A stretch of 10,026 nucleotides of DNA from Clostridia bacterium (GTDB lineage Bacteria; Bacillota; Clostridia; Oscillospirales; Acutalibacteraceae). Position numbers and translations under genes: made by a program. The stretch spans positions 1 through 10,026 of the forward strand of contig JAFQKZ010000019.1 of assembly GCA_017414725.1 (NCBI GenBank), written 5' to 3'. The stretch's first letter is position 1. Each line of letters opens with the position of its first letter. Below the pieces are notes generated by a model. It saw only the letters and a list, made by a program, of their open reading frames with translations. It was not told the origin of the DNA and made no database searches. Below, in pieces: positions 1-9,384 of the stretch.

Positions 1-783
1 ATATTCACTAAAATCTGACATTCTGTTTAAAGTAGGATTAAAATATGAAAATAGCGATAACGTAAAAATTAACAGAAACATTAATATGAACACAGGTAAA
101 ATTAAATTTTTGATAATTATTCTTAATGTTTTTGTTGTAGAATTGTTTTGGTTGAATTTAAAGTTTAACTCCGGGTATTCTTCAAGAATTTTATCGGGAT
201 TTGAAAGTTGCACAATAACATTTGAAGGCTGTATATTAGCTTGATTTATTGATTTTTTTAATTTAAAATCAATATATTGATTACACACGTTTAATATTTC
301 TTTGCAAATCTCAGGGTCATACGAAACGCTTGTCAGATTGACTACCATAGTGTTTTTCTCTCGTTTTGCAATATATAAATTTTCAATATTTTTTGTTGCA
401 ATATCACTATTGTTGATCGTGTTCGATAATATTTTTTGTTCAATATCGCCTATATTGTGTCTAGATAACAGTTCATCATAAACATAATTTTTACATGCAT
501 GAGTATTTAATAACGCAACAAAATCATCTGGTATAGCACGAAAAAAGTTAATATTTTCGTTATTCAGAAGTTCAATTTTCGGCTCTAAATAATAATCAAT
601 TGACGCTACATAAATTTTAGAATCATCAATCACGTCCTTGTTGTTAACTATTTGTTTGTGCGTTGTTAAACTAAAAACAAAAAGAAATACAAAAAATAAA
701 CTTGAAATTAACACTATGTTTTTTTTGATTACTGAAAAAATGTCTTTTATGCCGAATTTGTTAATATTTTCTGCCAATTTCAT
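1..783 (-). CDS. Wzz/YveK-type polysaccharide chain-length determinant, C-terminus cut by window edge
   Basis: Reading the minus strand from ATG at 783, the frame stays open for 261 codons to the window edge. Visible topology: a short cytoplasmic N-terminus, a membrane helix at about residues 22-40 (ILV/F-rich), an extracytoplasmic domain of about 185 residues, and a second helix at about 225-246. The last visible residues, NPTLNRMSDFSEY, resemble the segment after the second helix in Gram-positive Wzz-like proteins (D-P-T-x-x-x-x-x-D), which usually leads to a kinase-interaction tail. This family sets the chain length of exported polysaccharide and often partners a BY-kinase; both roles are inferred here. 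The ATG overlaps the stop of the upstream polymerase by one base (TAATG), and AAAAGGAG lies 5 nt upstream, so start choice is secure and translation is probably coupled. Overall sequence similarity to named members is weak; the call rests on topology and context. Confidence 0.75.
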   Translation of the reverse strand, partial: MKLAENINKFGIKDIFSVIKKNIVLISSLFFVFLFVFSLTTHKQIVNNKDVIDDSKIYVASIDYYLEPKIELLNNENINFFRAIPDDFVALLNTHACKNYVYDELLSRHNIGDIEQKILSNTINNSDIATKNIENLYIAKREKNTMVVNLTSVSYDPEICKEILNVCNQYIDFKLKKSINQANIQPSNVIVQLSNPDKILEEYPELNFKFNQNNSTTKTLRIIIKNLILPVFILMFLLIFTLSLFSYFNPTLNRMSDFSEY

Positions 784-2231
784 TAAAACTCCTTTTCGAT
801 AAAACTATATTTTTGTTTAATATCGTAGCTTTTTGACAATAATTTTGCACCTGCAAAACAAATAATTACTGGGATATAGTATTGTGCGTAAACTAAAAAG
901 CTTATCCATCTGAAACTTGATGTGCGTGGGCAGTAAAAAATTCCCGTTAAAATCACCAAAATAATAGTTCTATTAATGTGATTTTTGTTCATAATAGACT
1001 TAGCTATAGCTCCGAATAAAAAACCTATCGCCAAACTAAAAACTATAATTCCAATATAACCCCAATCGGCATAACTGTCAAGTATGTACGACGAGCCCCA
1101 ACCATGACCCGCGAGAAAATAATCTTTCGCGATGGTGTAGGCGAGACGATTGGCAAGTTGATTGCTGTAAAGTCCAGAGATTTCGTTTTGGCCGGTTCCA
1201 AGTGATTTTGTACCAAACAAAAATTGTGCAATATTACCATAAAATATGTAATCAAGCATGTCCCCAAAGCTATAATTCACAAATCCGGTATATTTGATTT
1301 TCGGAATAGCTTTGTATCCCATACGCAACACATCAAACGAAACGCCTTGCTTATAAAAAAAATCGACTATTAAATTTAACATGTTTTTAATCTCGAGCTT
1401 TTTGTTCTCACGAATATAATTATGTGCACCAAGAAATGCCATTCCTGCGGGCATTCCCAAACACAAAGTGCCTTTTTCAAGTTTTCCGAACCACTCGTTT
1501 TTTGTTTTATTTTCCTTAAAATTTAATATTTCTCTAATTATATAATAAACTATTGCAAACAGTACGCTTTCCACCAATTTGTGTCTTGCGCCGATTAAAA
1601 AATACGGCATGCTTGAGATTACATATAGGCACAATGGGAAAAAAGCTTTGGATTTTTTCGGAAAACATGCCAGAAATATGCACAAAAAATACTTGCACAT
1701 TGACGCAAATATGTTTATTATTAACGGTAATTTTGTGTTGAATGATACATAAATTTCTTCATAATTACGTCCACGCATGTACATGAGTTTTTCGATTTCT
1801 ACTATAAATAAAAAACACACGCTTATATAAAACATAACCATGGAAACAAATTCAAGATTATGAACATAACTGTTTTTTTTAACAATATTTTGATTTTTAT
1901 TTAATATTTTTTCGGAAATATTAACCCCAAGCAAAATACATATTAAGGAAATATATACACTGCCTAGAGCAAAAAGATTTTCACTTACTGTGCTGCAATT
2001 CCAGTAATTTTTTTGAATGATTTTTGAGCTATGAAAAGAATTTATTAATGGTCTACTAATGAAAAATAAGAAAATCACTATATTGAATACAAAAAACACA
2101 TATCTTGAGCTAAATTTTTGGCAAGAATACACTAAATTCGAAATCCAAAAAATAACTATACCATTTAACATAAAATTGTATTTTAAATCTATAAATCCTA
2201 ATATAAATATAATAATTGATAAAAATCTCAA
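783..2231 (-). CDS. Wzy-type oligosaccharide repeat-unit polymerase (integral membrane)
   Basis: A hydrophobic protein of 482 residues counted from the conventional TTG at 2231. It has about ten or more membrane segments (for example near 5-15, 24-36, 44-59, 86-104, 127-145, 170-190, 197-213, 219-234, 254-270, 389-410, 421-434, 444-462) and a long extracytoplasmic loop between about 272 and 388. That loop ends in GHGWGSSYILDSYADWGYIG, a layout typical of O-antigen/capsule polymerases. Wzy proteins join lipid-linked repeat units on the outer face of the membrane. The TTG at 2231 has no SD. A strong SD (AGGAGGTGAG, 2291-2300) overlaps the stop of the upstream glycosyltransferase gene. The frame is open back to 2291 and has an ATT at 2283-2285 nine bases after GGAGG. 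I think the true start is probably there, giving 500 residues. Sequence divergence is normal for Wzy, so the sugar linkage cannot be predicted. Confidence 0.85.
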   Translation of the reverse strand: MRFLSIIIFILGFIDLKYNFMLNGIVIFWISNLVYSCQKFSSRYVFFVFNIVIFLFFISRPLINSFHSSKIIQKNYWNCSTVSENLFALGSVYISLICILLGVNISEKILNKNQNIVKKNSYVHNLEFVSMVMFYISVCFLFIVEIEKLMYMRGRNYEEIYVSFNTKLPLIINIFASMCKYFLCIFLACFPKKSKAFFPLCLYVISSMPYFLIGARHKLVESVLFAIVYYIIREILNFKENKTKNEWFGKLEKGTLCLGMPAGMAFLGAHNYIRENKKLEIKNMLNLIVDFFYKQGVSFDVLRMGYKAIPKIKYTGFVNYSFGDMLDYIFYGNIAQFLFGTKSLGTGQNEISGLYSNQLANRLAYTIAKDYFLAGHGWGSSYILDSYADWGYIGIIVFSLAIGFLFGAIAKSIMNKNHINRTIILVILTGIFYCPRTSSFRWISFLVYAQYYIPVIICFAGAKLLSKSYDIKQKYSFIEKEF

Positions 2232-2290: not shown

Positions 2291-2300
2291 CTCACCTCCT
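2291..2300 (-). promoter_or_regulatory. Strong SD for the polymerase gene, overlapping the upstream stop codon
   Basis: The minus strand reads AGGAGGTGAG, matching the 16S anti-SD over nine bases. Its TGA (2294-2292) is the stop of the upstream glycosyltransferase. In the polymerase frame the next codons are GCT TTA ATT TAT ATT. The ATT at 2285-2283 is 9 nt from GGAGG, an ideal distance, whereas the first ATG/GTG/TTG in frame (TTG at 2231) is more than 60 nt away. The site decides the start and suggests initiation at a non-AUG codon. Confidence 0.7.
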
Positions 2301-3254
2301 GCATAATAGTATTTTTCTATAAATTTTTTCTGATACTAAACCTAAAATAATTGATATTTTTCGTTTTAAACTAAAATTTTTGTTCAAAATTATCTTCAAA
2401 ATGTTATGTTTTATTTTGGATTTCATTTCGTTATAATTAGAATTATGTTTATAAGCGTTTGAAAATATAATATTATCGAAAACATGTATATACGACCAAA
2501 AATATCTGTATTCTGCTTCTTTTATGTATTCAGGATAATATCTTTTGGCAAAATTTAATATAAATTCACCGGAATCTATAATGTCTTTTTGTTGATTTAT
2601 ACCAAAAACATTATGCGTGATACTGTTTGGATTACTAACATAATTATATAATTTCGCGGGGGTATATACAACTTTTTTTGCTTGATGAAAAATCTGCGGT
2701 GTCAATATCGTATCTTCAAAAATCTTGCCAACAGGAAATCTTAAATTATTAAACAGCTCTTTTTTATACAATTTATTAACTGTGTATAAACTTAATAATT
2801 TGCCCGAAAACAGATATTTCATACAGATTTTAGAATTAAAAACTTTTATTTTGTTACTATTGAACAAATTATTTTCGGAATTACTTATCTCACAAACAGA
2901 TATATCTGAATTGGTTTTTATCAAATTATTATGCAGAATCTCGTACATATCAGGATTTATATGGTCGTCAGCATCGACAAAACCAATAAAATCTCCCGTC
3001 GCAACGTCAAGTCCGGTATTTCGCGCAGCACTCACGCCCATGTTTTTATCGTGATTTATAATTTTTATTCTAGAATCTTGCAATGCGTATTCTTGACAAA
3101 TCTTCTCAGTATTATCGCGAGAAGCGTCATTAACAATAATTAATTCGAAATTTTTAAAATTTTGATTAATAATAGATTTTATACATGTTTCAATGGTGTT
3201 TTCGGAGTTATAAGCCGGAACTATTATACTTATAATTTCATTTATATTTGTCAT
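2292..3254 (-). CDS. Family 2 glycosyltransferase (GT-A fold)
   Basis: A 320-residue protein with a standard GT2 catalytic domain over about residues 7-215. The N-terminal strand and nucleotide-binding segment are IISIIVPAYNSENTIE (7-22), followed by VNDASRDNT (41-49). The metal-binding acidic motif is DADD at 94-97, and the acidic pair FEDT near 179-182 is where the catalytic base usually lies. The C-terminal 100 residues are variable and probably contact the acceptor. GT2 enzymes of this type transfer a sugar from a nucleotide donor to a lipid-linked oligosaccharide at the inner membrane face; donor and acceptor are unknown. The ATG at 3254 lies 13 nt after the tarJ stop. A GGGAG sequence lies 19 nt upstream, too far for a good SD, so coupled translation from tarJ is likely. 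The gene ends in the SD of the polymerase gene. Confidence 0.93.
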   Translation of the reverse strand: MTNINEIISIIVPAYNSENTIETCIKSIINQNFKNFELIIVNDASRDNTEKICQEYALQDSRIKIINHDKNMGVSAARNTGLDVATGDFIGFVDADDHINPDMYEILHNNLIKTNSDISVCEISNSENNLFNSNKIKVFNSKICMKYLFSGKLLSLYTVNKLYKKELFNNLRFPVGKIFEDTILTPQIFHQAKKVVYTPAKLYNYVSNPNSITHNVFGINQQKDIIDSGEFILNFAKRYYPEYIKEAEYRYFWSYIHVFDNIIFSNAYKHNSNYNEMKSKIKHNILKIILNKNFSLKRKISIILGLVSEKIYRKILLCRR

Positions 3255-3267
3255 GATTTTAATTTAT

Positions 3268-4290
3268 TTATAACTCCCATTTAAAAATAGTCTTAAACGG
3301 AGTATTTAAATCTGTCTTAAAAACCCTGTGGATGTCAGCTATGCTCCTCACAGGTGCGTCCTCGAATATTATCTGCTCAAGGCGTTTTTGGATTTTCGAG
3401 TTTTCTAATATGCTCGCAGCTTTCTCAAAATCTGTTCTTCCTGAACGACTTGACCCCACAAATGTCAGGCCTTTTTCAAGAATATCACGCGTATTAATGG
3501 CAATTTTGTTTTCACTGACACCTAGCAAAATCGCGGTCCCCTGGGGATTTATATGATTTATGATGCTATTTATCGCGTCATGGCTGTAATCTCCGCCCAC
3601 ACACTCAAATGCATGATCGGTCTGAAAATTTTTAGGGAGATCATCTGTTAAATATATGTTATCTGCAAACCAAAATTTGGATAATTTAAACTCATTTTTA
3701 CCAATAATTGTCAATTTCGTGCCCGGAAATTCGTTCTGAATCACACATGACAAGACATAGGCTAGACTGCCGTCGCCCCAAATAGTTATGTTCTCGCGAA
3801 TTTCGTGTGCAATATTCTTAAATCTCTCAACAGCATGAACCGCAACGCTAATAAATTCGCAAATACTTGAAATTTTAATGTCTATATTATTAACAGAAAC
3901 AACGCGGTCCGCAGGTAAATCTACAAACTCGCGCATAAAACCATCATGACCACTAGACAAAAATTTCGAATTTTTTTGATAATTTTCGTAAATTATGCTG
4001 TTAGTTTTGTAATTTTTGTCCGGTGAATTAGGGACCATAACGACTTTATGCCCGGGTTTGTAGGTGTCTGTAGGGTCATAAATTATTTCTCCTACTGATT
4101 CGTGAATTAATGCCATTGGTAATTTTTCACGTAATTTTTTCATGTCACGAAGCCCCAAATAATATCTTTGATCAGCGTGACATATTGACATGTATAACGG
4201 CCTTATTATTAAGCTTGTATTTAAATTTAATTCCGAATATTTTATAGAAAAATTACCCGGAGATGCCAATTGGTATACACAATTAATCAA
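3268..4290 (-). CDS. tarJ: Ribulose-5-phosphate reductase (ribitol-5-phosphate dehydrogenase), TarJ type
   Basis: This 340-residue medium-chain dehydrogenase reduces D-ribulose-5-P to D-ribitol-5-P with NADPH, the first step to CDP-ribitol. It closely resembles staphylococcal TarJ as I recall it: IIRPLYMSICHADQRYY (28-44), LPMALIHESVGEI (57-69), HKVVMVPN (81-88), SSGHDGFM (112-119), FECVGG (218-223) and FVGSSRSG (277-284) are shared landmarks. Probable catalytic zinc ligands are C37, H63/E64 and E145. The cofactor loop is WGDGSLA (161-167), with Ala where many relatives have a third Gly. The start is TTG, chosen because AAGGTGA lies just upstream and the resulting MINCVYQL N-terminus matches the family. 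It overlaps the tarI end by 8 nt, as expected for a pair of enzymes acting in sequence. Assignment to TarJ rather than a generic alcohol dehydrogenase rests on both sequence and the tarI partner. Confidence 0.93.
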   Translation of the reverse strand: MINCVYQLASPGNFSIKYSELNLNTSLIIRPLYMSICHADQRYYLGLRDMKKLREKLPMALIHESVGEIIYDPTDTYKPGHKVVMVPNSPDKNYKTNSIIYENYQKNSKFLSSGHDGFMREFVDLPADRVVSVNNIDIKISSICEFISVAVHAVERFKNIAHEIRENITIWGDGSLAYVLSCVIQNEFPGTKLTIIGKNEFKLSKFWFADNIYLTDDLPKNFQTDHAFECVGGDYSHDAINSIINHINPQGTAILLGVSENKIAINTRDILEKGLTFVGSSRSGRTDFEKAASILENSKIQKRLEQIIFEDAPVRSIADIHRVFKTDLNTPFKTIFKWEL

Positions 4291-5008
4291 TTATGTCACC
4301 TTCTATGATGCTGTTAGCGATTCTGTAGTCGCTTACAGTCGTGATTTTTATGTTAAAACCCGCACCGTCGACCAATTTAACAGGTATATTATTTCGAACA
4401 AAAACGGAGCAAGCATCTGTGAAATTATTTTGCTCATCCGGCGTCAAATTATTATACAAATTTTTGAATTCACTCGCATAAAAACTTTGTGGGGTCTGAC
4501 CCTGATACAAATTTTTTCTGGCAGGTACGGTCGTAATAAAATCGTGATTTGTGGACTCAATAATAGTATCAATTGCAGGTATTACAGTATCGCAAACTCG
4601 ATGTTTGCGGGCATTTTCAATATTATTTTCTATCATTTTAAGCGTCAGAAATGGTCGAACAGCGTCGTGCGTTACTAAAATATGATCTGAACTTTCGCCG
4701 TGATTTTCTTCGATTTTATTAATCATATTTATTATAGTTAAATTTCTGGTTGTACCGCCTTCAACTACAAAAATTTTCTTTTGATAATTATTAATAATGT
4801 ACTTTTTCAGAAGTTCGTGCGTGTAATCAACCCAATCTTTGTGAACTCCGAGATAAACAAAATCTAATTCGGTGCACATCAAAAATTTTTCGAGTGTATG
4901 AATTATTATGGGTTTCTTTTCTTTGCCTAAGGGTAAAAATTGCTTTGGCATATCAGAAATTCCCATGCGTGTTCCGGTGCCACCTGCTACAATTGCTCCA
5001 AAAATCAT
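4283..5008 (-). CDS. tarI: Ribitol-5-phosphate cytidylyltransferase, TarI type
   Basis: A 241-residue member of the IspD/TarI family that couples CTP and ribitol-5-P to CDP-ribitol and pyrophosphate. Visible motifs: AIVAGGTGTRMG (5-16) for CTP phosphate binding, PKQFLPLG (21-28), GGTTRN (84-89), VTHDAVRPF (112-120), YQGQTPQSF (168-176) and KITTVSDYRIA (221-231). The HDAVRPF and QGQTPQSF stretches match TarI well; IspD (methylerythritol pathway) is the main alternative, but the adjacent tarJ and the polysaccharide setting favour ribitol. The ATG overlaps the TGA of the upstream fusion gene (ATGA), with GGAGA about 10 nt ahead of it. Human ISPD (CRPPA) is a homologue that makes CDP-ribitol for dystroglycan. 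Confidence 0.93.
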   Translation of the reverse strand: MIFGAIVAGGTGTRMGISDMPKQFLPLGKEKKPIIIHTLEKFLMCTELDFVYLGVHKDWVDYTHELLKKYIINNYQKKIFVVEGGTTRNLTIINMINKIEENHGESSDHILVTHDAVRPFLTLKMIENNIENARKHRVCDTVIPAIDTIIESTNHDFITTVPARKNLYQGQTPQSFYASEFKNLYNNLTPDEQNNFTDACSVFVRNNIPVKLVDGAGFNIKITTVSDYRIANSIIEGDIID

Positions 5009-6852
5009 AAATTTTCAATCTCCTTTTTGTGCGTTTTGTAAGAATTCTCTAAGTCCATAAAAATTATATCATGATGCGGCTTTTGGTTTTCCAAATCAGG
5101 AATCTTCATATAATCTCCAAACGCCATTTTTAAATACAAGTCATAATTACTTGGCAACGGTATTGATAAGTTCTCGAATTTTTTATAAACAGGATCCTGA
5201 AAAATTTCTTTTGGGTACTCGTTTTGCATATATTTCGGCCCGGAGCACAGTTCCGTAATTTTCTCCGAATCGCAAATTTTGTACTTTGACATCTGCTTTT
5301 CACAGTATTTCCAAATTTTAATTTTTAATTTATTTGGAAGCAATAATAAAATTTTTGAAATATAATATATAATTTTTCCGTGTTTTTCAGGAACATATCT
5401 CGAGCAAAACAACGAATAAATTAAAGCATAAATTTTTTGGATTTTTCTTTTAATCCCGGCCGGAGCACAGCCGTCTAACGGCAAAACATCCAGGCATAAG
5501 CCTTGTGGAATATCCAGATTTTTTTGATTTGGGCGAACAACAGTCGTGTTATTATCGATTATAGTAGTAAATATATTTCCTGTGAATAAATTTTTAGACG
5601 CTCGTAAACATGAATATTTTTGGGTATCTGCGTGATTTTTCCATAAAATTTCAAGCTTGTCATAATCTTCACGCGGCATGAAAACATCTAGATCATCGTC
5701 CCATGGAATAAAACCCTGATGTCTGATGGCACCTATGCACCCTCCGCCACAAACATAAAACTTTAAATTATGTTCTTCACAAAATTCTTTAAAATATTTC
5801 AAAATATTTAGAGATTTTTGCTGAATTTTTTTTAATTTTTCTGAATCTAAATTTATATATGATATTTTTCTCGGCGATTTTTTGAGATTTAAAATTCCTA
5901 CTAAAAATCCCAGTCCATATGATACGTGTAAAATAAAATGCACGAGCATTAATATAAATTTATCACAAATATTTAATTTTTTGTTTTTAAAACTGAAGTA
6001 TAAATTCAATATCAAATACAGGCCCATTACAGAAACAAATATGCTAGACACAAATTTTGAAAATAACGATAAAATCCCAAATAATATTAAAAAAATTACG
6101 AAACAAACAGGTACCAGATGTGTAATCCTGGCAGGTTTTTTATGTTTTTTTATAACTGCAACTTTCCAAAATCCGTATTCAAAATACTGTTTAAACAAAT
6201 CTTTTAAATTGTCTCTGGGATAATATTTGCTTTTTATTTCAGGTGTCATATAAATTTTCATGTTGTTTTCGATCATTCTGAAACATAAATCATCATCTTC
6301 GTTACGAATTAAATTACTATCGTACATACCGATTTTTACGATATCGTCACGCTTAAACGCACCTAAAAATACAGTATCGGTGTATCCCTCGTAATTTTTA
6401 TCGTGATTTTTGCCGCCGCCCAATGCAAATTCAGAGTAATATGATTCAGCAATAATATTCTGAATTCTGTTTCGACTTGCAGTTACGACCGGGCCGCCGA
6501 CATTAGTAGCACCGGTTTTCTTCAAATATTCAATACACTTTGAAATATAATTTTTTGAGTATTCGCTATGTGCGTCGAGTCGAACGATATATTCTCCTAT
6601 AGAGTTTTCTATGCCTATATTTAATGCGTGCTGAACCGTTCTCCTGTGATTATCTATTAGTCTAATATAACTATACTTTTTAGCGTAAGTATTTATGATT
6701 TCTCTGGTCTTATCACTAGACATGCCATCTATCAATATTACTTCCATATTTTCAACAGGAAAATCCTGCGAAATTACAGATTCTAAAAAATTCGAAATAT
6801 ATTTTTCTTCGTTATATATTGGCACAATTACTGATACTATTGTTTTAGACAT
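5005..6852 (-). CDS. Bifunctional GT2 glycosyltransferase - LicD phosphotransferase fusion
   Basis: A 615-residue, first-in-operon protein with two enzymes joined by membrane helices. Residues 4-240 form a GT2 domain: VSVIVPIYNEEKYI (6-19), IDGMSSDKT (41-49), RLDAHSEY (91-98, the D-A-H variant of the metal motif seen in ExoA-like enzymes) and NEDDDLCFR (184-192). Three membrane helices follow at about 245-263, 267-287 and 298-321. Residues about 336-605 form a LicD domain: YVCGGGCIGAIRHQG (366-380), then PWDDDLDVFMPREDYDKL (383-400) with the metal-binding Asp cluster, and GLCLDVLPLDGCAP (451-464). LicD proteins move a phospho-alcohol from a CDP donor to a glycan (phosphocholine in pneumococcus), and fukutin/FKRP use CDP-ribitol. 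With tarI and tarJ directly downstream, ribitol-5-phosphate is the favoured substrate (inference). ATG at 6852 follows AGGAG by 9 nt. No frameshift is needed, so the fusion is real in this sequence. Confidence 0.9.
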   Translation of the reverse strand: MSKTIVSVIVPIYNEEKYISNFLESVISQDFPVENMEVILIDGMSSDKTREIINTYAKKYSYIRLIDNHRRTVQHALNIGIENSIGEYIVRLDAHSEYSKNYISKCIEYLKKTGATNVGGPVVTASRNRIQNIIAESYYSEFALGGGKNHDKNYEGYTDTVFLGAFKRDDIVKIGMYDSNLIRNEDDDLCFRMIENNMKIYMTPEIKSKYYPRDNLKDLFKQYFEYGFWKVAVIKKHKKPARITHLVPVCFVIFLILFGILSLFSKFVSSIFVSVMGLYLILNLYFSFKNKKLNICDKFILMLVHFILHVSYGLGFLVGILNLKKSPRKISYINLDSEKLKKIQQKSLNILKYFKEFCEEHNLKFYVCGGGCIGAIRHQGFIPWDDDLDVFMPREDYDKLEILWKNHADTQKYSCLRASKNLFTGNIFTTIIDNNTTVVRPNQKNLDIPQGLCLDVLPLDGCAPAGIKRKIQKIYALIYSLFCSRYVPEKHGKIIYYISKILLLLPNKLKIKIWKYCEKQMSKYKICDSEKITELCSGPKYMQNEYPKEIFQDPVYKKFENLSIPLPSNYDLYLKMAFGDYMKIPDLENQKPHHDIIFMDLENSYKTHKKEIENL

Positions 6853-7514: not shown

Positions 7515-7937
7515 GGGGGCGTAATGGGTTCGACGGGGAATATGAAGTTAAGTAAGCGAGTAGCGCTGTGACCGCTCAAAACTCACATTTTAATTAAATG
7601 GAAAAGCTTTATATGGCGATAAGCCAAATAAAAACAACAAAAAAGGTGGCAACGTAGTTTACGCTGATTTCAGCAAAAAAGCTACAAAAAAAGCTGCTTA
7701 GTCTTATATAGAAGACGACGTTTCCTTTCAAAGTACCACAATTGACTGGAAGCGACTAAACAGTGGTGAACGTGAATTAAAGAATTTCTCGACTTTGATC
7801 ATGAAATAGAGAATATCTGTATTTTAAATTTGTTTGTGTGTTTCTAGTACAGAGAAAATTTAAACACGAACTACACTCGTAGAAAGCTTAATAGGATTAT
7901 TTTTCGGACAGGGGTTCAATTCCCCTCGCCTCCACCA
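7515..7937 (+). ncRNA. ssrA: Transfer-messenger RNA (tmRNA)
   Basis: The 5' end GGGGGCG (7515-7521) pairs with CGCCTCC (7927-7933), followed by encoded ACCA. The pairing includes G3-U, the alanine identity wobble. GGGTTCGACGGGG (7526-7538) is the hallmark D-arm region of tmRNA. The T-arm is AGGGG/CCCCT (7910-7914/7922-7926) around TTCAATT. Pseudoknot PK1 is visible as AGCG/CGCT (7562-7565/7573-7576) with the loop TGTGA (7567-7571) pairing to TCACA (7583-7587). The tag reading frame follows, then a long structured region expected to hold PK2-PK4. At 423 nt it is longer than the usual 350-400, and the excess lies in the tag frame. It is probably processed from the smpB-ssrA transcript, since only 1 nt separates the genes. 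The mobile element to the right begins at or next to its 3' end. Confidence 0.96.
7600..7701 (+). other. tmRNA proteolysis-tag reading frame (33 codons plus TAG)
   Basis: The resume codon is placed at GGA (7600) because it lies 12 nt after PK1, as in other tmRNAs, and is preceded by TAAAT, close to the TAACT-GGC arrangement I recall for Bacillus subtilis. The frame then runs to TAG at 7699-7701. The peptide (after the alanine from tmRNA itself) begins GKALYGDKPNKNNKKGG and ends YADFSKKATKKAA. It has nine Lys and two Asp, so it is strongly basic, and it lacks the usual ALAA end. A later resume codon (for example GCT at 7663, giving 12 codons) is possible but lacks the A at -4. Confidence 0.65.
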
Positions 7938-9384
7938 TGTGACCCTTATACGAACACATAGTATCGTGTAAGGGTATTTCTATTTTAGAGTCTTTGGCAT
8001 TACAAAAAATGCAGAGTTTATCTTGAATGAGATGGACTTTATTTATGAATGCATCAATAAGAGCTTGACGGAATTTTATGTCAGAAGCATCGCCATTCAA
8101 GAATTTTTGAAAGAAAAATTTAACTTGGTCTATTTCAAGCTTTGGTTTCAAAATTTTTTCTCTTGCAATTTGGACTTCTAGATTTTGTTTTTCTAGTTGT
8201 CTTTTTTCAATTTGAGCAGAAATAATGTCAATTGCTTTTCCGGATTCAAGAGCTTTGATTAAATTATTTGTAGCTGTTTCATTTTCTTTGATTTTCTTTT
8301 TTAGTCTTTTTAAGGTATCGGTGTTGCTTTCTTTTTCAGAAAGAGTACAGACGTTTTTTGAAATTTCATCAATTTTTTCGGGAGTTAGAATTTTCATAAC
8401 CGTATTAATAACTAAATCTTCTATGTAAGATTTTTTTATAGGTTTTAAAGAACATTTTTTCTTTCTGTTGCTACTACATTGATAATACTGATGTATAGTT
8501 TTATTTCTTGAAGTGCCACTAACACCAATAATGCTGGAATTACAATGGCCGCAAAATATCTTGTTAGAAAGTAAATACATTTCTTCTTTAGCTTTTGCTC
8601 TGGCAGGAGCTTTTTTGTTTTTTTGAAGTCTAATTACGGCTTGTTTAAAGGTTTCATCGTCAATTATTCTGGGGATATTTCCGGACATTTCTACACCTTT
8701 ATATGTGTAAATGCCAATGTATTTTTTATTGGTGAGTATTCGGCGGATGGAATTTTTGTTAAACTCATTTCCGAGAGCGGTTTTAGCCCCAATTTGATTT
8801 AGATATCGTATAACGTCAGCCATAGTTTTGCCTGAAATATACATATCAAAAATCTTTTTAACAACGGGTGCAGTGTTTTCGTCAATAACGTAATGTTTAT
8901 CTTCAATTTTATAGCCTAAAATTTTCATACCGCCAATTGCTAAACCTTTTTCAGCGTTAATGTTTAGACCTCGTTTTATTTTTTGAGAAAGCTCCACGCT
9001 GTAATATTCAGCCATGCCTTCAAGAACAGCTTCCATAAGAATACCGCTTGCATCATCGGAAATATTTTCCTTTGCCGAAAGTACACGGACACCATATTTT
9101 TTAAGTTTTGCTTTGTATATTGCTGAATCATAACGATTTCTTGCAAAACGGTCAAGTTGATAAACCAAAACACCCTCAAATTGACGTTTGGCGCTATCAG
9201 AAATCATGCGTTGAAATTCAAAACGATTCTCAGCTTCCTTTCCTGAAATTGCTCTGTCAATGTATTCAGAAATAATGTTATATCCTTTTTGTTTTGCGTA
9301 TTCATAACAAACTTTGAGCTAACCTTCAATTGATTGTTCATTTTGAGAGTGAGAAATAAATCTAGCGCAAATTACAACATTCAT
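7897..9384 (-). pseudogene. Large serine recombinase, inactivated by an amber codon and loss of the catalytic serine
   Basis: Site-specific recombinase of an integrative element. The frame starts at ATG 9384 (overlapping the XRE stop as TAATG) and reads MNVVICARFISHSQNEQSIEG, then TAG (9321-9319), then LKVCYEYAKQKGYNII and onward without another stop to TAA at 7897. The interrupted segment fits the family pattern ARYSS...SIEGQL, so TAG replaces Gln22. The catalytic Ser of the R-x-S motif is Ile10 (ATT; AGT would be one base away). The rest looks intact: YQLDRFARN (75-83), a recombinase domain to about 250, a zinc ribbon with Cys at about 278, 281, 303 and 311, and a coiled coil near 330-410. 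An open frame from ATG 9207 (436 residues) could still be translated but lacks the first 59 residues. The last 13 codons (MVEARGIEPLSEK) are antisense to the 3' end of ssrA. Confidence 0.88.
7942..7975. repeat. Inverted repeat / hairpin just after ssrA, candidate ssrA terminator
   Basis: ACCCTTATACGA (7942-7953) and TCGTGTAAGGGT (7964-7975) pair over 12 positions with one G-U wobble, around a 10-nt loop. The plus strand continues ATTTCTATTTTAG, a weak U-rich run, so it could end the smpB-ssrA transcript. It lies within the last codons of the recombinase on the other strand and close to the presumed element junction, so a role in recombination is also possible. Confidence 0.5.

Follow-up and report, generated by a model that had tools for sequence, protein, structure and literature searches.

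The genes tarI and tarJ serve the synthesis of ribitol activated by cytidine diphosphate (CDP-ribitol), and in a stretch of Clostridia DNA (assembly GCA_017414725.1, contig JAFQKZ010000019.1) they directly follow a gene with a LicD domain, which raises the question of what enzyme spends this CDP-ribitol and on what product. The window analysed here (10,026 nt) is the entire contig G000:C87 of an 864-kb, 150-contig assembly that is 91.8% complete. A preliminary description of the window had reported a LicD domain with an intact PWDDDLD motif followed by overlapping tarI and tarJ, and the open reading frames confirm this arrangement, with overlaps of 4 bases between the LicD gene and tarI and 8 bases between tarI and tarJ, all on the minus strand. 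We consider it likely, judging from sequence, that the operon makes CDP-ribitol and that the LicD domain uses it in building the repeat unit of a surface polymer, either teichoic-acid-like or capsule-like, whose assembly depends on Wzy/TarP. Transfer of ribitol-5-phosphate from CDP-ribitol by LicD is the best reading of the locus; the donor, the acceptor, the order of steps, the lipid carrier and the destination of the polymer are inferred. The features that carry this reading are as follows.

5005..6852, minus strand: GT2-LicD fusion of 615 amino acids, consisting of a GT2 glycosyltransferase, long helices and a LicD phosphotransferase (open reading frame; Pfam GT2 and LicD; AlphaFold)
6367..6834, minus strand: GT2 domain, residues 7-162 (PF00535, E=1.2e-30)
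5887..6207, minus strand: four long helices, residues 216-322, putative membrane part of an ExoA-like GT2 (secondary structure of the model)
5116..5781, minus strand: LicD domain, residues 358-579 (PF04991, E=1.2e-43)
5686..5706, minus strand: PWDDDLD motif, residues 383-389 (hidden Markov model alignments to 6kaj)
4283..5008, minus strand: tarI, D-ribitol-5-phosphate cytidylyltransferase for CDP-ribitol synthesis (NF001183; PDB matches)
3268..4290, minus strand: tarJ, ribulose-5-phosphate reductase (6xh9; PF00107, PF08240)

CDP-ribitol synthesis and the GT2-LicD fusion protein

The tarI product matches the NCBIfam model NF001183 (D-ribitol-5-phosphate cytidylyltransferase) with 316 bits at a cut-off of 166, and two of its four best PDB sequence matches (all E<=1.7e-63) are named ribitol-5-phosphate cytidylyltransferase. 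TarJ matches 6xh9, 'Ribulose-5-phosphate reductase 1', over its full length (E=3.9e-93) and contains PF00107 and PF08240. Both genes expected of a pneumococcal-type teichoic acid locus are present in the window. TarJ would convert ribulose-5-phosphate to ribitol-5-phosphate, from which TarI would form CDP-ribitol with CTP.

The LicD domain of the fusion protein aligns with the whole PF04991 profile (positions 1-227 of 227; 150.3 bits, cut-off 22.6). The AlphaFold model of the 615-residue chain has a mean predicted local distance difference test score of 93.9 and a predicted template modelling score of 0.66. In the GT2 part D93 and H95 are conserved, as is D186 just past the domain, and the modelled helices of residues 216-322 are putatively the membrane-inserted part of an ExoA-like GT2. 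The predicted fold of the LicD domain is FKRP-like. D385, D387 and D389 align with D360, D362 and D364 of FKRP, whose roles have been described (PMC6965139), and Asp occupies all three positions of the PWDxDxD motif in 36 of 36 LicD rows. This domain, with its LicD3-type sequence and FKRP-like nucleotidyltransferase-fold site, would transfer ribitol-5-phosphate to a growing lipid-linked sugar. To this chain the fused GT2 would probably contribute a sugar as well, and that sugar is plausibly the residue that accepts the ribitol phosphate. As both domains reside in one protein, the gene probably encodes two steps.

GT2 and LicD are separate neighbouring genes in seven other genomes of the genus (L023, L024, L025, L027, L028, L029 and L030). 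The LicD start, taken as a first-start guess, lies 0-9 bases past the GT2 stop in the same frame in three of these and in another frame in four. Among 120 listed of 707 database proteins, at least 21 have both domains, the cluster of the window protein included, and one of them is named Candidatus Improbicoccus pseudotrichonymphae. Five chains (P0017, P0018, P0019, P0020 and P0099) are tandem LicD-LicD proteins with two LicD-like halves, the first half of P0099 being without a start.

Ancestry of the LicD domain

A LicD-profile scan of genome contigs listed 80 loci, and the nearest named organisms among them are Parvimonas micra (55% identity) and Streptococcus mitis, S. infantis, S. oralis and S. 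peroris (50-52%). In S. oralis (L059), after LicD come genes for two glycosyltransferases, then one for a Wzy-type polymerase and one for TarQ (552 bits, cut-off 350). This order corresponds to the published locus numbers licD3 SPD_1201, SPD_1200, tarP SPD_1198 and tarQ SPD_1197 (PMC5448163), and the streptococcal LicD is therefore read as LicD3 by position. LicD3 has been assigned the incorporation of phosphate-bridged ribitol (PMC4649388).

In L060 and L074 a flippase-like gene is followed by two LicD genes, which were taken, also by position, as presumed LicD1 and LicD2. Identity of the window LicD is 50% (288 bits) with the S. oralis LicD next to TarP-TarQ and 31% (125 bits) with presumed LicD1, which places it closer to the LicD3 position; for LicD2 the comparison is by tree and bit scores. 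For the tree, 121 matched open reading frames were reduced to 118 by dropping those below 25 bits or 150 residues and to 115 by dropping those below 240 residues, which excluded the streptococcal LicD from L089, truncated to 142 residues. In this tree, a quick one without bootstrap like the second below, the window LicD falls in a 37-row branch with a Shimodaira-Hasegawa-like approximate likelihood ratio (SH-aLRT) support of 98. The branch holds the six streptococcal LicD3-position rows and 16 of the 17 rows with tarIJ neighbours, while presumed LicD1 and LicD2 lie outside; with three rows added it comprises 39 rows at a support of 96. The comparison with FKRP and LicD1/LicD2 that the preliminary description had proposed thus gives an aligned triad, an FKRP-like fold and a grouping with the LicD3 position.

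A TarJ relative (E<=1e-20) is encoded somewhere in 15 of 20 genomes selected among those with a branch LicD; for L053 and L065, which count among the 15, tarJ was known beforehand to lie beside LicD. In S. mitis (L055:9809-11971), S. infantis (L058:9802-11946) and Granulicatella (L065:9795-11963), the second gene after the LicD3-type gene encodes a LicD-domain protein of about 720 residues.

Conservation in the genus and search for other transferases

The preliminary description had suggested looking for LicD beside tarI-tarJ in genomes without TarK/TarL. Such a unit is conserved: LicD, tarI and tarJ are contiguous behind the same GT2 in eight of 11 same-genus genomes (G000, G001, G002, G003, G004, G006, G007 and G010), with a 130-residue frame between LicD and tarI in G003, and LicD identity among the genus loci is about 60%. 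In G009 the contig stops within LicD. The three genes also occur in G015, which belongs to another genus.

The window assembly, G000, has a single LicD. None of the 12 genomes (G000-G010 and G015) contains a match to PF04464, the TarK/TarL/TagF family, and this extends to relatives the earlier statement that the window lacks a TarK/TarL-type transferase. The choline kinase family PF01633, expected of a pneumococcal-type locus, was not found in G000 and exceeds its cut-off in none of the 12, in a search that left aside LicB, LicC and any choline transporter; G007 has a weak match of 17.5 bits, and of 14 genomes scanned G076 alone passes. The earlier remark that choline genes are absent thus holds for choline kinase, LicC being outside this search. 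It had also been said that TarK/TarL or choline genes further left in the operon would contradict the proposal; the contig ends there, and the search of the assembly in its place returned neither PF04464 nor PF01633.

Partition of tarIJ neighbourhoods across the class

The partners of tarIJ were surveyed in 292 genomes of the class Clostridia, each at least 85% complete and the window genome included, with a threshold of E<=1e-25 for TarJ relatives and a neighbourhood of 5 kb. TarJ relatives are present in 10 genomes. PF04464 without LicD lies near them in six (G296, G238, G200, G301, G176 and G085), LicD without PF04464 in three (G000, G217 and G076), neither in one (G039) and both in none. 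Both LicD proteins of G217 fall inside the branch of the window LicD. This partition, in which tarIJ stands beside a TarL-type enzyme or a LicD and in none of the 10 genomes beside both, suggests a genomic rule.

TarI-family genes over the cut-off lie within 5 kb of a LicD in 13 of 59 cases, compared with about 0.2 expected by chance, and for 10 of these 13 a TarJ relative is missing within 2 kb. The count used these 59 TarI-family rows and two below the cut-off, 144 LicD, 10 TarJ and 74 PF04464 rows; one of the lists comprised the stronger matches, its weak end left out, and inspection by eye placed every omitted PF04464 row farther than 5 kb from any TarI over the cut-off. The TarI-LicD pairs without TarJ suggest other CDP-alditol routes feeding LicD enzymes. 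LicD directly adjoins a TarI-family gene, with no TarJ relative nearby, in G296:C104, G031:C65, G171:C7, G279:C531, G125:C33 and G312:C15. At G310:C50:39997-42429 the TarI-family and PF04464 matches both report an open frame of 862 residues, probably a fusion of TarI-TarL type.

Downstream genes and the polymer

Three further genes follow tarJ in the window.

2292..3254, minus strand: second GT2 glycosyltransferase, resembling the one beside streptococcal tarP (PF00535, E=4.6e-40)
783..2231, minus strand: TarP-like Wzy polymerase (PF14296, E=4.6e-97)
1..783, minus strand: TarQ-like protein, ending at the contig edge (NF052598 below cut-off; weak colinear similarity to Parvimonas TarQ)

The second GT2 scores 147-171 bits against the glycosyltransferase adjoining the TarP-like gene in L056, L059, L060 and L074, and the polymerase is of TarP type, with 32% identity (192 bits) to the polymerase adjoining TarQ in S. 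oralis L059. The TarQ-like protein is colinear with Parvimonas TarQ, the similarity being weak (25%, E=7e-07). The second glycosyltransferase would extend the repeat unit and the Wzy-type polymerase would join the units.

Weighing the readings

Several observations count against a LicD3-type enzyme spending CDP-ribitol on a teichoic-acid-like polymer. FKRP Asp416 is not aligned by sequence, D455 being a candidate counterpart (Asp in 31 of 36 rows). FKRP is the only LicD structure found in PDB searches, and the fold is therefore uninformative on ribitol as opposed to choline or glycerol. The LicD portion of the fusion protein used as query has no match in G005 and G008, and the tarIJ-adjacent LicD of G076 lies outside the branch of the window LicD. 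Among the 20 genomes with a branch LicD, five (L069, L075, L076, L077 and L081, of completeness not given) have no TarJ relative at E<=1e-20, so that a LicD of this branch does not always come with tarJ; LicD in these five possibly uses a different CDP-alditol. In each of them the branch LicD adjoins an ExoA-like GT2. A capsule enzyme with a LicD domain uses another CDP-polyol, read as glycerol (PMC11666461). The TarQ-like protein reaches 29 bits on the equivalog model NF052598, far under the cut-off of 350, its gene being cut by the contig end. A polymerase of the window type with a TarQ-like gene stands beside LicD in one of seven other genus loci (L028, that is G003), or two of eight with the window. 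In place of it, a gene of the O-antigen ligase/polymerase family PF04932 (464-470 residues) lies downstream in L023, L024, L025, L027 and L029, the five loci covered by that scan.

Because different polymerase families lie downstream of the same core, the final polymer probably varies while the GT2-LicD-tarI-tarJ core is constant. This rarity of the TarP-like gene, the PF04932 proteins and the low TarQ score all favour a capsule or exopolysaccharide repeat carrying ribitol phosphate over a wall- or lipid-bound teichoic acid. Such a product overlaps our preferred reading and differs in the destination of the polymer only; we regard it as a serious possibility, slightly disfavoured by the resemblance of the window LicD, glycosyltransferase, polymerase and TarQ-like gene to the streptococcal and Parvimonas tarP/tarQ loci.

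It is improbable that the group moved by the LicD domain is a different CDP-activated one, phosphocholine or glycerol phosphate, and that CDP-ribitol goes to an unseen enzyme. In the Lic-1 pathway, LicD is the enzyme described as transferring phosphocholine (PMC10434233), glycerol has the precedent of the capsule enzyme above, and the window protein scores higher on the cholinephosphotransferase model Mf1 (72.9 bits) than the streptococcal LicD3-position LicD (48.3). However, the cut-off of that model is 225 bits and presumed LicD1 and LicD2 score 99.3 and 98.0; their rows also depart from the window branch at 30 columns in which at least 20 of 22 rows agree, and the 12 genomes offer neither PF04464 nor a choline kinase over the cut-off. 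That the locus is a decaying remnant without product is very improbable, since five complete locus genes are uninterrupted, the sixth is open up to the contig end and LicD-tarI-tarJ is kept in most of the genus, in spite of the small and fragmented assembly (864 kb, 150 contigs), the two genomes without a LicD match and a disrupted recombinase nearby.

Comparison with known systems

Ribitol-phosphate transfer by the window LicD most closely resembles a step of the pneumococcal-type (type IV; PMC12211801) teichoic acid pathway, with which the window shares a LicD3-type LicD, tarI, tarJ, a glycosyltransferase, a TarP-like polymerase and a TarQ-like protein. In contrast to that pathway, tarIJ is in the same operon, LicD is fused to a GT2, the TarQ-like protein is very diverged, no choline kinase was found and five scanned genus loci have another polymerase family. 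No tarIJ is seen at the streptococcal loci, and tarJ is found in six of six genomes. A single cluster comparable to that of the window is present in Parvimonas micra L053. The window locus acts like part of the pneumococcal-type pathway and is not classed with the choline-bearing type.

The preliminary description had likened the locus to the ISPD-fukutin/FKRP route. CDP-ribitol synthesis and a LicD-fold transferase with an Asp triad are indeed common to both, and in FKRP, too, a GT-A-like domain precedes LicD (PMC6965139), yet the closest comparison is the pneumococcal LicD3 step. FKRP has a GT-like stem without its motif and a zinc-finger loop (PMC6965139), whereas the window protein keeps conserved GT2 residues and has helices between its domains. 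The presumed acceptor here, a bacterial lipid-linked glycan, is likewise different. A further relative by description is the capsule enzyme Cps7C/CpsC, which we take to come from A. pleuropneumoniae. It shares a LicD domain with an FKRP-like catalytic Asp and a CDP-polyol donor, but differs in a tetratricopeptide repeat part and in polymerising polyol phosphate (PMC11666461). The enterococcal polysaccharide antigen, also likened by description, combines LicD proteins with a TarI homologue for a different polymer (PMC7188991).

As a new concept the proposed counterpart was anticipated by the LicD3 assignment (PMC4649388) and by the E. faecalis LicD proteins, proposed to add ribitol phosphate from CDP-ribitol (PMC7188991); bacterial ISPD-LicD fusions and homologues using CDP-choline or CDP-ribitol have also been described (PMC4873967). 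The idea of a three-gene donor-plus-transferase module survives in the conserved LicD-tarIJ unit, with the amendment that the enzyme is a GT2-LicD fusion, probably of two steps. Among the paper titles listed in searches, most subscription papers being outside them, none concerns this locus in this lineage. The chemistry and the concept are already known; what is added is the presence in this lineage, the fusion, a core that stays constant as polymerases are exchanged, and the partition of tarIJ. LicD3-type ribitol-phosphate transfer is thereby extended beyond streptococci, with a setting free of choline kinase for assaying a LicD of this type.

Host lineage and genomic surroundings

Unexpectedly, the ATP/ADP translocase family PF03219 exceeds its cut-off in all 12 genomes of the genus and G015 (in G010 by a 52.6-bit match alone) and in none of 10 other family members searched. 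In the comparison with Improbicoccus, which with its relatives forms a small-genome clade of putative energy parasites (PMC10579323), protein similarity to P0014 is 52%. The translocases, the small genome and the Improbicoccus match together fit that clade, and the host, a gut bacterium, is probably related to intracellular ATP-taking bacteria. A word search of the main text of PMC10579323 did not find 'teichoic', 'capsul' or 'ribitol'.

We tentatively propose that a choline-free ribitol-phosphate polymer, made through a LicD3-type enzyme, could be a surface glycan that intracellular ATP-importing Clostridia retain despite much loss of carbohydrate metabolism. It would be built by the constant GT2-LicD-tarI-tarJ core with exchangeable polymerases, some members having a fused two-step glycosyltransferase and ribitol-phosphate transferase in the GT-A-then-LicD order of FKRP. 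The locus would then indicate that bacteria resembling intracellular energy parasites have kept a surface polymer.

To the right of the locus lie smpB, tmRNA and a disrupted serine recombinase gene (7897-9384, minus strand), whose frame is broken by a single in-frame stop near its start. This gene overlaps the 3' end of the tmRNA gene (7515-7937), like elements inserted at ssrA.

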